Assembly (NCBI GenBank): GCA_913055915.1 | Contig: CAJXKL010000007.1 | Coordinates: 1 to 64,000, forward strand | Reading direction: 5' to 3' | Length of the DNA: 64,000 nucleotides | From: an uncultured Candidatus Nemicrothrix sp. | GTDB taxonomy: Bacteria > Actinomycetota > Acidimicrobiia > Acidimicrobiales > MedAcidi-G1 | In this document: one piece after another, positions 13,283 to 36,631 of the stretch | Layout: each line of letters starts with the position of its first letter | Numbering within the stretch: position 1 is the first letter of the stretch | Notes under the pieces: model-generated | What the model was told of the DNA's origin: nothing | The model's input: the letters and a program-made list of their open reading frames with translations, nothing else | Database searches by the model: none | Translations under genes and position numbers: made by a program

Positions 13283-14227
13283 ATGGGTAACCTCTGTGAA
13301 GGCCGAGTAGCGGTAGTGACCGGTGCAGGCCGGGGCATCGGACGCGAACACGCGCTGCTCCTGGCTGAGAACGGTGCAAAGGTCGTGGTGAACGACCTCG
13401 GAGGCGACGCCGCCGGATCGGGCACCGACCTGTCACCGGCTCAGGAAGTCGCTGGCGAGATAGAGGCCATGGGTGGCGAGGCCGTGGTAAACGGCGCCAA
13501 CGTCGCGGACTTCGACGCCGCAGGCACCATGGTTCAACAGGCCATCGACACCTGGGGTCGCCTCGACATTCTCGTTAACAACGCCGGGATCCTCCGGGAT
13601 CGTATGGTCTTTTCGATGTCTGAATCCGACTGGGACGCCGTGATCGATGTCCACCTGAAGGGCACCTTTGCTCCCGCCCACCACGCAGCCGTCCACTGGA
13701 GGGAAAAGGCGAAGTCGGGCGACTACGCCCCGGAGGAACTGTTCGGTCGGATCATCAACACGTCCTCCCCATCCGGCATCTACGGAAACGTCGGCCAGTG
13801 CAACTACGGCGCTGCCAAGGCAGGGATCGCCGCCTTCACGGTCATCAGCGCCATGGAACTCGTCCGGTACGGGGTGACGGTGAACTGCCTGGCCCCCGGC
13901 GCATTCACCCGGATGACGTCCGGCCTGGCCGGTTGGGAGTCCATGGACGAGGAAACCAGGGAGGCCATGAGCCCCCGCTGGATAGCAGTGCCCACCGTGT
14001 GGCTCTGCAGTGAGGCCGCCCAGAACGTGACCGGCCGGGTATTTGACGTGCATGGCAGCCAACTGGGCATAGCGGAGCAGTGGCATCTCGGACCGACCGC
14101 GGTCCAGCCCGACGACCCCGCTGACTTGACTGACGTGATGGCCGGTCTCATGGCCGACGCTCAGCTCAACTCCGACATGCAGGGGATGCCGGCCGAGGGC
14201 CCGGGGCGACCAGGCCGGGGCTTGTAG
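13283..14227 (+). CDS. SDR family oxidoreductase (multifunctional-enzyme-2/HSD17B4-like)
   Basis: Short-chain dehydrogenase of 314 residues, longer than the classical 250. Cofactor motif TGAGRGIGREHALLLAENGA, then VVNDLGGD and LVNNAGILRD; catalytic Ser in NTSSPSG and Tyr/Lys in YGAAKAGI. The REHAL after the glycine motif, the DLGGD segment and the insertion before the serine (EKAKSGDYAPEELFGR) are typical of peroxisomal D-bifunctional-type 3-hydroxyacyl-CoA dehydrogenases. This fits the acyl-CoA dehydrogenase gene next door. ATG at 13283 has AGGAG about 11 bases upstream. Confidence 0.87.
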   Translation: MGNLCEGRVAVVTGAGRGIGREHALLLAENGAKVVVNDLGGDAAGSGTDLSPAQEVAGEIEAMGGEAVVNGANVADFDAAGTMVQQAIDTWGRLDILVNNAGILRDRMVFSMSESDWDAVIDVHLKGTFAPAHHAAVHWREKAKSGDYAPEELFGRIINTSSPSGIYGNVGQCNYGAAKAGIAAFTVISAMELVRYGVTVNCLAPGAFTRMTSGLAGWESMDEETREAMSPRWIAVPTVWLCSEAAQNVTGRVFDVHGSQLGIAEQWHLGPTAVQPDDPADLTDVMAGLMADAQLNSDMQGMPAEGPGRPGRGL

Positions 14228-14241
14228 GGGGCCAGCCCCCT
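14226..14241 (+). terminator. Hairpin immediately after the SDR stop codon
   Basis: AGGGGGC (14226-14232) and GCCCCCT (14235-14241) form a 7-bp inverted repeat that overlaps the stop codon, about 48 bases before the acyl-CoA dehydrogenase start. The closing two-base loop implies that 6 pairs with a 4-base loop is the realistic fold. It may modulate read-through. Confidence 0.5.
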
Positions 14242-14288
14242 GCTAGCGCCTGCCAGCAAACCCCACCAGCAGGCCATCCAGGACCACC

Positions 14289-31700: not shown

Positions 31701-32639
31701 ATGATGCAGAGCGACCTGCCGGTCAGTGGCCGCAGCACCCATCAGGCACTTCCAGATCCGCGAAACGCCACCGTCCAGATCTACATCAACGGCATCTTCC
31801 ATCCCAGGCCTGAGGCGAAGGTCTCGGTGTTTGACAGCGGCTTTCTGGTGGGCGACGGGGTCTGGGAGGGAATCCGGCTCCACAATGGCTGCTTCGCCTT
31901 CATCGATCGCCACCTGGATCGCCTCTTTGCCGGGCTGGCTGCAATCGACCTCGACATGAGGATGACCCGTGCCGAAGTCACCGATGCGCTCAGGTCCACC
32001 ATCGATCAAAACGACATGCACGACTCGGTGCACGTGCGCCTGATGGTCACGAGGGGCGACAAGACAACGCCCTCCCAGCATCCGACCAACGTCATTGACG
32101 GACCCAACGTCGTCATCATCGCCGAGCACAAGACTGCCGACCCGGCCGTGTCCGATCAGGGGGTCTCACTGTTCACGGCGACCGTCCGCCGACCACCACC
32201 CGACACCCTCGACCAGCGCCTCAACTCACACTCCAAGCTGCACGAGGTGATCGCCCTGATCCAGGCGACGCGGGCCGGAGCCGACGAGGCACTCATGCTG
32301 GACCCCACGGGAGCAGTCGCCACCTGCAATGCCACCAACTTCTTCGTGGTCAGGTCAGGTGAACTCTGGACCTCGACCGGCCACTACAACCTGCACGGCA
32401 TCACCCGCGCCGTGGTTCTCGAGGAGGCGGCAGCAGCGGGCATCGCCACTAGGGAGCAGCCCTTCTCCCTGACCGACGTCTACTCAGCCGACGAGGCCTT
32501 CGTCACCGGAACATTTGGTGGCCTGACCCCTGTCTCCGAGGTCGACGGGCGCACCATCGGTACCGGAACCCGTGGCCCGGTGACCTCACGCCTGAACGAC
32601 CTCTACCGCAGGGCAGTGGCCGCCTCGGTAGGGCTGTGA
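31701..32639 (+). CDS. Class IV aminotransferase-like protein (BCAT/DAAT fold), atypical active site
   Basis: A 312-residue member of the class IV (ilvE/D-amino acid aminotransferase) fold: VSVFDSGFLVGDGVWEGIR, IDRHLDRLFAGL, HVRLMVTRG, DEALMLDPTGAV, HGITRAVVLEEA and TGTFGGLTPVSEVDG. In the segment where these enzymes carry the PLP lysine followed by xxNYLxN, I read LNSHSKLHEVIAL. By my alignment Asn175 occupies the lysine position and Lys179 lies four residues later. The glutamate of the usual SExxxxNIF motif is Cys209 (TCNATNFF). It may be altered in chemistry. It is 13 bases upstream of a sulfotransferase-like gene; plants have a fusion of the two domains. Confidence 0.85.
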   Translation: MMQSDLPVSGRSTHQALPDPRNATVQIYINGIFHPRPEAKVSVFDSGFLVGDGVWEGIRLHNGCFAFIDRHLDRLFAGLAAIDLDMRMTRAEVTDALRSTIDQNDMHDSVHVRLMVTRGDKTTPSQHPTNVIDGPNVVIIAEHKTADPAVSDQGVSLFTATVRRPPPDTLDQRLNSHSKLHEVIALIQATRAGADEALMLDPTGAVATCNATNFFVVRSGELWTSTGHYNLHGITRAVVLEEAAAAGIATREQPFSLTDVYSADEAFVTGTFGGLTPVSEVDGRTIGTGTRGPVTSRLNDLYRRAVAASVGL

Positions 32640-32652
32640 ACCAGACGGCGCC

Positions 32653-33372
32653 GTGACGCTACGCATCAACTGCTGGTCGGGGCCGAGGAACATCTCCACG
32701 GCCCTCATGTACTCCTTCAGGCAACGATCCGACACGCTCGTATTCGATGAGCCCATCTACGCCCATTACCTGAGGGCCAGCGGAAGGGAGCATCCGGGCC
32801 GGGCGGAGACCCTCGCCAGTCAGGACCCCGATGGCGATGCCGTGGTTCGCAACCTGATCCTCGGCCCCCACCCCAGCCCAATCGTCTTCCTCAAGATGAT
32901 GAGCCACCACCTCATTGACCTGGACACGACATTCCTCCGCAGATGCCGAAACATCCTCCTGATACGCGACCCACACCACGTGCTGCGCTCGCTGAGCGTA
33001 AACATCCCCGATGTCAACCTCGGCGACACGGGCCTTGAATCCCAGATCGACCTTCTGGACTCGATCCTCAACGCGGACGGAGACCCGATCGTCGTGGACT
33101 CTGCAGCGCTGCTTGCCGATCCTGAGGGCATGCTCCGAAAGATGTGCTCGGTGCTGGAGATCAGTTTCGAGGACGCCATGTTGTCGTGGCCATCGGGGCC
33201 CAAGCCCGAGGACGGGACATGGGCGGTCCACTGGTATGCGAATGCCCACGCCTCCACCGGATTCCTTGCCGGGATTCCGAGCAACGACCCCCTACCCACC
33301 CACCTGGGACCCGTACTGGAAGCAGCCCGACCCCTCTACGAGAGGCTCCTGGAACACTCCCTTTCCCCCTGA
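32653..33372 (+). CDS. Sulfotransferase-like P-loop protein
   Basis: A 239-residue protein starting at GTG. The N-terminal INCWSGPRNISTALMYSF is a PAPS-binding-type loop (WSGPRNxST), followed by VFDEPIYAHYLR, the helix FLKMMSHHL, ILLIRDPHHVLRSL (3'-phosphate-binding-type Arg/Ser strand) and WPSGPKPEDGTWAVHWYANAHASTGF. The same string of motifs occurs in the N-terminal half of plant branched-chain-aminotransferase-like proteins, whose C-terminal half matches the preceding gene. No biochemical activity is known to me. It lies between the aminotransferase-like gene and the selenoprotein gene. Confidence 0.78.
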   Translation: MTLRINCWSGPRNISTALMYSFRQRSDTLVFDEPIYAHYLRASGREHPGRAETLASQDPDGDAVVRNLILGPHPSPIVFLKMMSHHLIDLDTTFLRRCRNILLIRDPHHVLRSLSVNIPDVNLGDTGLESQIDLLDSILNADGDPIVVDSAALLADPEGMLRKMCSVLEISFEDAMLSWPSGPKPEDGTWAVHWYANAHASTGFLAGIPSNDPLPTHLGPVLEAARPLYERLLEHSLSP

Positions 33373-33400: not shown

Positions 33401-33982
33401 ATGCGCGAGACTCGTTCCATGGCCTGGATTGAGACGGTTCCGGACGGTGAATGGGAGTCAGGTGGAGGACACCTCGCCGATATGTATGGCAGGGTCGTCG
33501 ACCCGGAGAACGGACGGGTCGACCATGTCATGGCCGTCCACTCACTCAACCCACAGAGCCTCGCCGCCCACCAGGGCCTCTACGAGTCGGCAATGGCCGG
33601 GACAGCTTCACTACGCAAGGTCGAGAGGGAGATGATCGCCCTGGTCGTCAGCGTCCAGAATGAGTGCCACTACTGAACAACCCACCACCGGCGCGGTCTG
33701 CGCCGACTGCTTCGCGACGACGACCTGGCTGCCGCCATCGAGTCCAATTGGACCACGGCGGACATCTCACCAGAGCGGCGGGCAATGCTCGAGATGGCTG
33801 CAAAGTTGACACGGGCACCGGGAGCCATGCTCGAATCCGATGTCAGCCAACTCCGCGACGTCGGGTTCAGCGACCGCGACATCCTCGACATCGTCGAGGT
33901 GACCGCCTACTACGCCTACGCCAACCGGATCGTCGACGGCCTCGGCGTGGGGCTCGAGGCCTGGATCCCAGAGGGCTCCTGA
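33401..33982 (+). CDS. Selenocysteine-containing peroxidase-related (AhpD/CMD-like) protein
   Basis: One 193-residue reading frame interrupted only by TGA at 33674-33676 (codon 92). Upstream reads AWIETVP, DHVMAVHSLNPQSLAAH and EREMIALVVSVQNECHY; downstream continues in the same frame as TTHHRRGLRRLLRDDDLAA, MLEMAAKLTRAPGAM, VGFSDRDILDIVEVTAYYAYANRIVDGLG. This is the whole peroxidase-related enzyme family (AhpD fold) whose active site is NxCxYCxxHH. Here the second cysteine is UGA, giving C89-x-x-U92, with H95/H96 following. A SECIS-like hairpin follows the UGA. An ordinary gene caller would report two broken genes. Expected role: thiol peroxidase or redox partner. Third gene of an operon with the aminotransferase-like and sulfotransferase-like genes. 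Confidence 0.85.
33689..33705 (+). ncRNA. Bacterial SECIS-like element
   Basis: Twelve bases after the UGA a perfect 6-bp stem CGGCGC (33689-33694) / GCGCCG (33700-33705) closes a GGUCU loop (33695-33699). Loop G-G-U lies 18 bases after the UGA, inside the window required for SelB-dependent recoding, and the string GGTCTGC equals the apical part of the E. coli fdhF SECIS. Confidence 0.8.
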
Positions 33983-33991
33983 ACACGATTC

Positions 33992-34858
33992 CTAGAGAAC
34001 GGTCCCCAGGTCCTGCTGCTCAGCATTCGTGAGGGCCATCACTGCAGCCGCAATATCCTGTGACGCGATACCCACCGACTTGAAGAGGGTGAAGGGCTGG
34101 CCCGATGGTGCCACCCGCCCACCGATCAGGTCAGCCATGTCCGCATCGGGTTCACGGTCCACCCTCAACAGGTCTCCAGCCTCAACGGCAGCGGCCTCCC
34201 GGTCGTCGACGACCACAAACGCCTGCTCGACCACCTCGCCCGGGATCTCGACCATCTCCGGGGTGAAGGCGCCGACAGCGTTGACGTGCGTGCCCGGCCT
34301 CAGGGAGGAGGAATCGAACAAGGGGGCCCTGGATGGCGTAGCGGTACTCACCACGTCTGCCCTGGCCACCGCCTCGTCTGCATCAGGCACGACCTGCCCT
34401 CCGACCGAGTCGGCCAGGGCCCTGGCCGAAGCCTCGGTACGACTCCAGACGAGCACCTCCCGGATGGGCCGTACCGCCCGAACGGCAGCCACCTGGTCCG
34501 CAGCCATCGCCCCCGCTCCGAGCATGGCAAGAACACAGGCATCCGGGGCGGCCATCCTGTCCGTGGCCAGCCCCGGTGCCGCCGCTGTGCGTATCGCCGA
34601 GAGCGTGGGGCCGTCGACCAGCCCGAGCGGGTGTCCCGACTCGTCAAACACGGCGACGATTCCGGCAGGGTCCCCGGGAACCGATGAGACCACCTTCACC
34701 CCTGTGTACGAGTCAAGGCGCCCGGGCATGAACAGGGAGACCCCGAGGAGCATCCGGTTCGGCGCCTCGCGGTCACCCCCGAAGGCATGGACCATCGACT
34801 CGATGGCATCTGACATCGGCAGTGCGGCACGCACCTCATCCGGGTTCAGGTAGCGCAT
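33992..34858 (-). CDS. Ornithine cyclodeaminase/mu-crystallin-family reductase (probable delta-1-pyrroline-2-carboxylate reductase)
   Basis: A 288-residue NAD(P)-binding protein: MRYLNPDEVRAALPMSDAIESM at the start, GVKVVSSVPGDPAG, GPTLSAIRTAAAPGLAT, cofactor loop LAMLGAGAMAADQV, SRTEASARALADS, VSTATPSRAPLFDSSSLRPGTHVNAVGAF, and the C-terminal TLFKSVGIASQDIAAA. Family members include ornithine cyclodeaminase, ketimine reductase and Pyr2C reductase. Here it directly follows (2-base gap) the two aconitase-X genes, the arrangement known for cis-3-hydroxy-L-proline catabolism, so the reductase that turns delta-1-pyrroline-2-carboxylate into L-proline is the best guess. Confidence 0.82.
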   Translation of the reverse strand: MRYLNPDEVRAALPMSDAIESMVHAFGGDREAPNRMLLGVSLFMPGRLDSYTGVKVVSSVPGDPAGIVAVFDESGHPLGLVDGPTLSAIRTAAAPGLATDRMAAPDACVLAMLGAGAMAADQVAAVRAVRPIREVLVWSRTEASARALADSVGGQVVPDADEAVARADVVSTATPSRAPLFDSSSLRPGTHVNAVGAFTPEMVEIPGEVVEQAFVVVDDREAAAVEAGDLLRVDREPDADMADLIGGRVAPSGQPFTLFKSVGIASQDIAAAVMALTNAEQQDLGTVL

Positions 34859-34860
34859 TG

Positions 34861-35313
34861 TCAGCCTCCGGTCGTGTTGTCCGGATCGTCGTCGACGGAC
34901 CCGGATTGTCGGTGCAACGACCCATCCTCCCCCACGGCCACCGTCTCACCCGTCACCAGGGACGAATAGGTGGCCTCGTCGAGTACAACGACGGGCAGCG
35001 ACCGCCCGTACAACTCGCCGGCCACTATCGACCCGAGGGAGAGGATCTCGTCTGGTTCCAGGACGAGTATCGCCTCTGGGGCCGAGCCGCTTCGGATGGC
35101 CTCGAGGAGCACCGAACTGGAGGAACTGGATCCACGCCCCGAGGGCATGGCAATGACCCGCCCGGAGACCGTGCAGCCGTGCTGCGGATGGTGGTGGTCG
35201 ACTATCTCCCCCGTTCGGGGATCGACACCACCCCAGAAGCTGAGGGATTCATCGAGGCAGAGCACCTCTCCTGAAGCCGAGCCAGCCACCAACACAACCG
35301 GTTGTTCAGACAC
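34861..35313 (-). CDS. Aconitase X swivel (small) subunit
   Basis: A 150-residue DUF126-type swivelling-domain protein. Motifs: SFWGGVDPRTGEIVDHHHPQHG, VSGRVIAMPSGRGSSSSSSVLLEAI, ILVLEPDEILSLGSIVAGELYGRSLPVV. Serine-rich GRGSSSSSS is the phosphate/carboxylate-binding loop of the swivel. GTG at 35313 overlaps the end of the large-subunit gene by eight bases. With the large subunit it forms a heteromeric AcnX hydro-lyase (type II); type I enzymes have both domains in one chain. Confidence 0.82.
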   Translation of the reverse strand: MSEQPVVLVAGSASGEVLCLDESLSFWGGVDPRTGEIVDHHHPQHGCTVSGRVIAMPSGRGSSSSSSVLLEAIRSGSAPEAILVLEPDEILSLGSIVAGELYGRSLPVVVLDEATYSSLVTGETVAVGEDGSLHRQSGSVDDDPDNTTGG

Positions 35314-36568
35314 CTGACCACACCCTCTCATCGAGAAGCACCTTGCCGGCCACGGCCGACTCGACGCACTCGGAGGTACCGGCGAACACGACATCGACAC
35401 CCAGGTTGCCCGGTGCGTACCAGGCCCATTTGGCAGAGTCCGTCATCGCCGTGCCCGTCGTGTCAGCAAGTATCGCTGACACGTAGGTGCAGGTGTCGAC
35501 CACAAGGGCCACACCGGCGGACCGCAGCAGGTCGGCCCATCCCCGAAGCTCCAACTCAGCGAGAACCGAGCGGCCCGTTGAAACGTAGAAGTCCACGTCG
35601 GGGTGGACCCGCCTACCCGTCAGGAGGGCCACAACGACCTGGAACTCGTCGATCGAGTAGTGGGGTGTTCCGAGGCAGACGCTTGACAGCGCTGACCCAG
35701 AGACAGTGCAGAGCTGGTCGCGAGAAGCCCGCAGGTCGCTGGTTCTCACCTCCACGACCTCATGTGGATCCCTCCCACCCATGGCCGATTCGAGGGTTGG
35801 CGCCTCCGGTGTGCTGCCAACGGCGTGGAACATCCCGATGCTGCCGGCCGTTGCCGCACCTGCACCCAGGGCCCTCAGTCTCACCTCGCTGAGGGCCGTC
35901 GGCAGGCCTTCGATCACGGGAACCCGGGAACCCGATGCTGCTCCGACAACCGTCCCGAGCAGCGGATACACCTGGTCCAGGTCGAGCAGGTCGGGCGACA
36001 CGTCAAGGAGTCGAAAGAGGACTGTGGCACGACGGTTATCATCGAGGTGCAGGCCGGCGGCAGGTACCCGGCCCGTGATGGCGGCGGAGATGTCGATCAG
36101 GTCGCCGTAGCGGGCGGTGCGGGCACCCAGCACCGAGTTGGCAAAGACGATGGCATTCGACTCGGCCCAGGCCACCTGTTCGCCAAACGACGGGCGATTC
36201 TCCAGGTGGTACGGCGCACACGTCCATGTCGGCTGACAGCCCATCTCCTCGTACATCCCGGCCATCCGCCGAGCAGCCTCACCCTCAGCCTCATCCCCGC
36301 GGTACAGCTCGGGATGCAACAGGTCCAGAGAGGACACGTTGAGCGTGGTTGGTACGGCGACCGAGGCACCGCCCTCGACGAGGCGCCCGGCAAAGTCCAG
36401 CCCCGACTGCCCGTGGTAGAGACACGAATCAACGTGGGCGCCCGTGATGTCGAGCAGGTGGTCGACCCCCATCGATTCAGCCAGGCGCACGACGATACGC
36501 ATGGCCAACTGGGCAGCCGGGCCGGCATCTCCGGCTAGCCGTTGCCTGTCCTCGACGCTCAGGTCCAC
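35306..36568 (-). CDS. Aconitase X catalytic (large) subunit, probable cis-3-hydroxy-L-proline dehydratase
   Basis: A 420-residue DUF521 AcnX protein. Conserved runs: LDITGAHVDSCLYHGQSGLDFAGRLV, VPTTLNVSSLDLLHPELY, PTWTCAPYHLENRPSFGEQVAWAESNAIVFANSVLGART, AAITGRVPAAGLHLDDNRRA, PVIEGLP, CLGTPHYSIDEF, VDTCTYVSAI. Characterised AcnX proteins are cis-3-hydroxy-L-proline dehydratases in bacteria and mevalonate-5-phosphate dehydratases in archaea. The adjacent OCD-family reductase supports the hydroxyproline role. GTG at 36568 is chosen because TACGCT lies six bases upstream, a leaderless -10; reading upstream to 36625 is possible but poor. Confidence 0.85.
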   Translation of the reverse strand: MDLSVEDRQRLAGDAGPAAQLAMRIVVRLAESMGVDHLLDITGAHVDSCLYHGQSGLDFAGRLVEGGASVAVPTTLNVSSLDLLHPELYRGDEAEGEAARRMAGMYEEMGCQPTWTCAPYHLENRPSFGEQVAWAESNAIVFANSVLGARTARYGDLIDISAAITGRVPAAGLHLDDNRRATVLFRLLDVSPDLLDLDQVYPLLGTVVGAASGSRVPVIEGLPTALSEVRLRALGAGAATAGSIGMFHAVGSTPEAPTLESAMGGRDPHEVVEVRTSDLRASRDQLCTVSGSALSSVCLGTPHYSIDEFQVVVALLTGRRVHPDVDFYVSTGRSVLAELELRGWADLLRSAGVALVVDTCTYVSAILADTTGTAMTDSAKWAWYAPGNLGVDVVFAGTSECVESAVAGKVLLDERVWSGV

Positions 36569-36574
36569 CCGTTG

Positions 36575-36580
36575 AGCGTA
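36575..36580 (-). promoter_or_regulatory. -10 element for a leaderless aconitase X transcript
   Basis: On the minus strand TACGCT is followed by six bases and GTG (36568). No Shine-Dalgarno sequence precedes that GTG. Confidence 0.45.
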
Positions 36581-36631
36581 GGTCCTGGGTGACCACCGAC
36601 CCCAACCACCGCGTGGCGGCACCAACCAGCC

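Follow-up and report, generated by a model that had tools for sequence, protein, structure and literature searches.

A predicted bacterial SECIS element in the CxxU-type AhpD-like selenoprotein gene of an uncultured member of the Acidimicrobiales

An in-frame UGA in an AhpD-like gene of an uncultured Candidatus Nemicrothrix sp. is followed by a hairpin that is almost certainly a genuine, canonical bacterial SECIS placing selenocysteine (Sec) in the encoded protein. The gene was found in the window, i.e., the whole stretch of 64,000 nt that was analyzed (contig CAJXKL010000007.1 of assembly GCA_913055915.1). In the proposed mechanism, SelB with Sec-tRNA-Sec(UCA) would bind the GGU loop downstream of the UGA, and the SelB-bound tRNA would deliver selenocysteine at the UGA in place of termination. 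In the AhpD-like product, Sec would thereby stand where CxxC proteins normally have their second Cys. We infer both SelB binding and the actual insertion of Sec from the sequence features described here. The gene, its hairpin, and its neighbors are arranged as follows.

31701..32639, plus strand: class IV aminotransferase (branched-chain/D-amino acid type), upstream, by domain and profile matches
32653..33372, plus strand: sulfotransferase-domain protein (PF19798), upstream, 46 nt before the selenoprotein start
33419..33982, plus strand: AhpD-like selenoprotein gene (CMD domain, TIGR01926), by read-through ORF and profile matches
33674..33676, plus strand: UGA in frame, predicted to encode selenocysteine at the final position of the redox motif CHYU (CxxU)
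33677..33688, plus strand: spacer of 12 nt separating the UGA from the predicted SECIS stem
33689..33705, plus strand: predicted bacterial SECIS hairpin, by fold, covariation, and invariant loop
33992-36625, minus strand: ornithine cyclodeaminase/Pyr2C-reductase-like gene, aconitase X swivel, and aconitase X, convergent, downstream

The gene start (ATG, 33419) was picked by an MxWI motif conserved among relatives. The frame around the UGA is open from 33395 to the stop TGA at 33980-33982, which gives a product of 187 aa if the UGA is read as Sec. In a profile search, the read-through product matched PF02627 (CMD domain) with an E-value of 1.6e-12, and it scored 144.7 bits against TIGR01926 (peroxidase-related enzyme; cut-off 81.8), a model matched by 36 of 36 members of A2 (E <= 0.001). 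An alignment with the solved Cys homologs PDB 3c1l and 2pfx places the UGA at the second Cys of their CxxC, and the active-site motif of the read-through product is E-x11-C-H-Y-U-x3-H. We take its spacing, E-x11-C-x2-U-x3-H, to be that of the catalytic Glu-Cys-Cys-His of AhpD. The AlphaFold model, obtained with 36 sequences, reached a mean pLDDT of 95.2, and its top PDB match was the AhpD-core protein 2prr (E 1.5e-10, TM 0.86). The product is predicted to be mostly helical with a CMD fold, and we infer that it acts as a thiol/selenol peroxidase or as a disulfide reductase. A second Sec in the motif (UxxU) was ruled out. Two TGA codons were present in seven family genomes, and in the six where the position was read (L040-L044 and L047) the extra TGA preceded the start and was 84 codons away from the motif. 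The mechanical ORF list cuts the gene in two at the UGA, so that the whole subfamily risks annotation as truncated.

The host genome, assembled to 2.1 Mb in 41 contigs and 94% complete, decodes Sec, as judged by the presence of selA, selB, tRNA-Sec, and selD. On contig C5, selB scored 268 bits against a cut-off of 242 and has selA next to it; the same contig carries a tRNA-Sec with the anticodon TCA (67.5 bits). selD reached 361 bits. A second AhpD-type gene in the same genome belongs to NF041238 and has its UGA at CFYU (266 bits, cut-off 175). The selD of this genome (L018) likewise contains an in-frame UGA, located at GAG-U-GCK and followed by strong hairpins. ARAGORN also reported a tRNA-like gene with an incompletely assigned two-base anticodon (gg) at 14190-14285 on the minus strand of the window. 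While the frame would be open whatever residue the UGA encodes, recoding without selenium, either genome-wide as Trp or Cys or by SECIS-independent read-through, is extremely improbable, as the AhpD-like gene and both upstream neighbors terminate in TGA, the UGA stands at a Cys position in a genome with Sec machinery, and the loop of the hairpin is under selection.

The hairpin consists of a perfect 6-bp stem (CGGCGC at 33689-33694 paired with GCGCCG at 33700-33705) and the loop GGUCU at 33695-33699, which begins 18 nt past the UGA. This geometry had been described in the first-pass annotation and was confirmed in the window sequence. The bSECIS constraints used here, taken from the legend of Fig 2 in PMC13188914, call for a loop of 3-9 nt with an upper stem of 4-16 bp, G in the first two loop positions (usually G[G/U]), 16-37 nt from Sec-UGA to loop, and an MFE of <= -7.5 kcal/mol. 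The respective values for the hairpin are 5 nt and 6 bp, GGUCU, 18 nt, and -12.2 kcal/mol for a 40-nt stretch. Across the window, a loose bSECIS rule was satisfied at 541 of 848 plus-strand UGAs. Of these 848 UGAs, 10 had a hairpin with 6 bp or more and a loop starting in GGU 16-37 nt away, as did 10 of the 981 UGAs on the minus strand. The combination of exactly 18-nt spacing with a 5-nt loop occurred at 2 of the 848 plus-strand UGAs. Compared with dinucleotide shuffles, the folding z-scores of three stretches were -1.62, -0.19, and 0.22. The folding energy in the single sequence is ordinary for its composition (not significant) and no proof of a SECIS. A scan of the window with Rfam at gathering thresholds gave 0 matches, and the SECIS is thus without Rfam support. 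The initial argument that such a GC-rich hairpin is improbable was therefore overstated from the single sequence, given the ordinary z-scores and the ten comparable plus-strand UGAs. The hairpin stands above chance because it is conserved across relatives.

The full-length gene (46 copies) occurred in 45 of 48 family genomes, with UGA in 45 of 45. Among the other three genomes, two were without a match and one held a 26-residue fragment and a weak hit. Order-wide, 57 of 298 genomes matched (E 1e-20), 48 of them with the UGA and 9 with a stop-free homolog only. At a selA threshold of E 0.001, selA was matched in 48 of 48 UGA-gene carriers vs 137 of 250 non-carriers in the order (Fisher p 8e-12, relatedness ignored). 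In genome_contigs, 99 stretches encode relatives, and the UGA was present in 80/80 of the best 80 of 99, including L185, which contains Ns. Most of these best 80 of 99 loci were labelled Acidimicrobiales or other actinobacterial names, and a few Acidobacteria, Planctomycetota, Thermoanaerobaculia, or Anaerolineae. A Cys version occurred neither among the 45 full-length family orthologs nor among the best 80 of 99 genome_contigs loci. The family, order, and genome_contigs sets overlap, and their counts are phylogenetically non-independent. The UGA was also present in L093. L113 and L094 proved to be CMD paralogs with SGYW and CDYA at the motif, respectively, and L095, L114, and L124 were left out of all sequence counts.

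Alternatively, an ordinary Cys gene might have acquired the UGA through a nonsense mutation or a sequencing error (TGY to TGA), with the hairpin present by chance. This reading is in line with Cys codons being one base away from UGA and with the hairpin alone not being rare in a GC-rich window. It is hardly credible when the same UGA recurs in every full-length family ortholog and in all of the best 80 of 99 loci, across many assemblies, with an intact reading frame downstream and a covarying stem. The objection of the first-pass annotation to a simple nonsense mutation is thus supported.

The GGTCT loop was invariant in 73 of 73 distinct 45-nt rows of A1. In these 73 rows, 91.8% of the cells of the 6-bp stem were paired, and double-sided changes occurred in 5 of 6 stem pairs. 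None of the shuffles (0/500) reached any of the five measures, and slid controls were all lower. Replacements included C-G to U-A at the pair adjoining the loop (L037), G-C to A-U (L046, L087, and L098), and G-C to C-G (L102). Both the compensatory stem changes and the conserved loop that had been proposed as checks were therefore found in the relatives, and together they support the reading of the hairpin as a SECIS. The outermost stem pair was not conserved, being unpaired in 24 of 73 rows, which leaves a conserved core of 4-5 bp. In the g3 clade the stem measures only 4-5 bp, and L092 folds at -6.9 kcal/mol, just under the strength of the published -7.5 threshold. When 1253 hairpin positions were compared over 195 nt in 81 of the 82 genes, two registers of this hairpin were the top two in conservation, with 99 and 95% of rows, respectively. 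Of the 81 Sec genes, 77 formed 4 bp or more at the fixed register, vs 0 of 14 Cys homologs.

Conserved nucleotides may also reflect protein constraint on RRGLRR or codon bias instead of RNA structure, as HHxRGLR is nearly invariant at the protein level and 4 of 6 stem pairs link first and second codon positions. However, synonymous sites are strongly restricted. The Gly codon of the loop was GGT in 82 of 82 distinct UGA genes, whereas other Gly codons in those genes were GGT in 122 of 825, and codons +5 to +8 past the UGA showed very little synonymous variation in the same 82 genes. Third positions also take part in the covariation of the stem pairs (A-U, U-A, and C-G replacements), and RRGLRR is dispensable in Cys homologs, which have HGAxLR or similar. 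Protein constraint or codon bias is thus a very improbable source of the pattern, and a selected RNA element, i.e., the predicted SECIS, remains the preferred reading.

Within the best 80 of 99 loci, the loop was GGTCT in 78 of 80. The exceptions, L206 with the loop GGGCT and L207 (Anaerolineae, 51% identical) with another hairpin further on, stay in the count of 80. L111 and L112, two remote relatives (41 and 38% identity), kept GGUCU on a wholly different stem, which speaks in favor of a SECIS. A UGA at the motif was also observed in remoter TIGR01926-type homologs of the same phylum at 35-46% identity (L214, L215, L216, L218, L220, L221, and L222). The remoter UGA homologs (about 35-46% identity) carry other, quite different predicted hairpins downstream, which suggests turnover of the SECIS, and the UGA is hence more widely shared than this hairpin. 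Relatives with the UGA and no conserved stem-loop, which had been named as evidence against a SECIS, are absent within the subfamily but do occur at these lower identities and in L207.

Among 54 loci with full flanks, the aminotransferase was found near the UGA gene in 15 and the sulfotransferase in 14, while AcnX was located within 3 kb in 23. The idea that a conserved operon might point to the function was dropped at these frequencies, and no substrate can be named from such loose co-occurrence. The aconitase X in the window (33992-36625, minus strand) is of the cis-3-hydroxy-L-proline dehydratase type. Directly upstream of the UGA gene, a Cys-less CMD paralog (SGYW) was observed at 211-831 on the minus strand of L113 and upstream of 2983 in L143; it may be a partner that is degenerate or has a structural role. 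Among the best 80 of 99 loci, 14 have the UGA gene head-to-head with an AhpD-type, NF041238-like UGA gene (CFYU, about 371-376 aa) at a distance of about 50-60 nt. These loci, drawn from L130-L209, are L141, L146, L148, L149, L152, L156, L161, L164, L171, L172, L178, L179, L190, and L192. By its sequence, this arrangement is a conserved divergent pair of two predicted selenoprotein genes.

The AhpD-like CxxU selenoprotein is an already known kind, as it is listed in three publications. The Sargasso Sea paper (PMC1088965) gives AhpD-like (27 sequences) and CMD-domain (4) selenoproteins, both CxxU, the GOS paper (PMC2398784) lists AhpD-like 1 and 2, both CxxU, and a 2026 review (PMC13188914) has an AhpD-like protein, TIGR01926, CxxU, among its selenoproteins. 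By its description in the review, the latter shares the NCBIfam model, CxxU, one Sec, and UGA with a bacterial SECIS with the gene reported here, and no difference was found at this level. A literature search for selenoprotein together with Acidimicrobi found no paper on selenoproteins, as judged by titles and the start of abstracts; the detailed Acidimicrobiales member set is an addition. NF041238 (AhpD_rel_CFYUT), which corresponds to 'hypothetical protein 1' of the Sargasso Sea paper, has the AhpD core, CxxU, and UGA in common with the present gene but is longer (about 360-376 aa), reads CFYU instead of CHYU, and has another hairpin. Against its model the AhpD-like product scored 45 bits, below the curated cut-off of 175. 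The Cys-type TIGR01926 proteins (PDB 3c1l, 2pfx, 2prr, and 6k40) have the same fold and CxxC position and differ by CxxC in place of CxxU and, in 14 Cys genes, by the absence of the hairpin at its register. The SECIS of E. coli fdhF (NC_000913, UGA codon 140) has the same GGUCU loop, 18-nt distance, and GGUCUGC heptamer, the shared heptamer having been claimed at first pass and confirmed in NC_000913, whereas its stem is longer with internal mismatches and its protein is unrelated.

The subfamily reads HHRRGLRR where Cys relatives read HGAxLR or similar. As the HHRRGLRR codons carry the hairpin, a commitment of the subfamily to Sec may have resulted, and the head-to-head pairing suggests a selenium-dependent two-enzyme redox module. 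The wider proposal that the SECIS remodeled the active-site surroundings of the protein and locked the subfamily into Sec, and that the paired genes form such a module, is tentative and on balance rather doubtful. For the order, the predicted SECIS means that an AhpD-type selenoenzyme would be encoded by marine Acidimicrobiales, whose genes would provide a large, well-conserved natural set of fdhF-like SECIS loops with compensatory stems, useful for testing SelB recognition.
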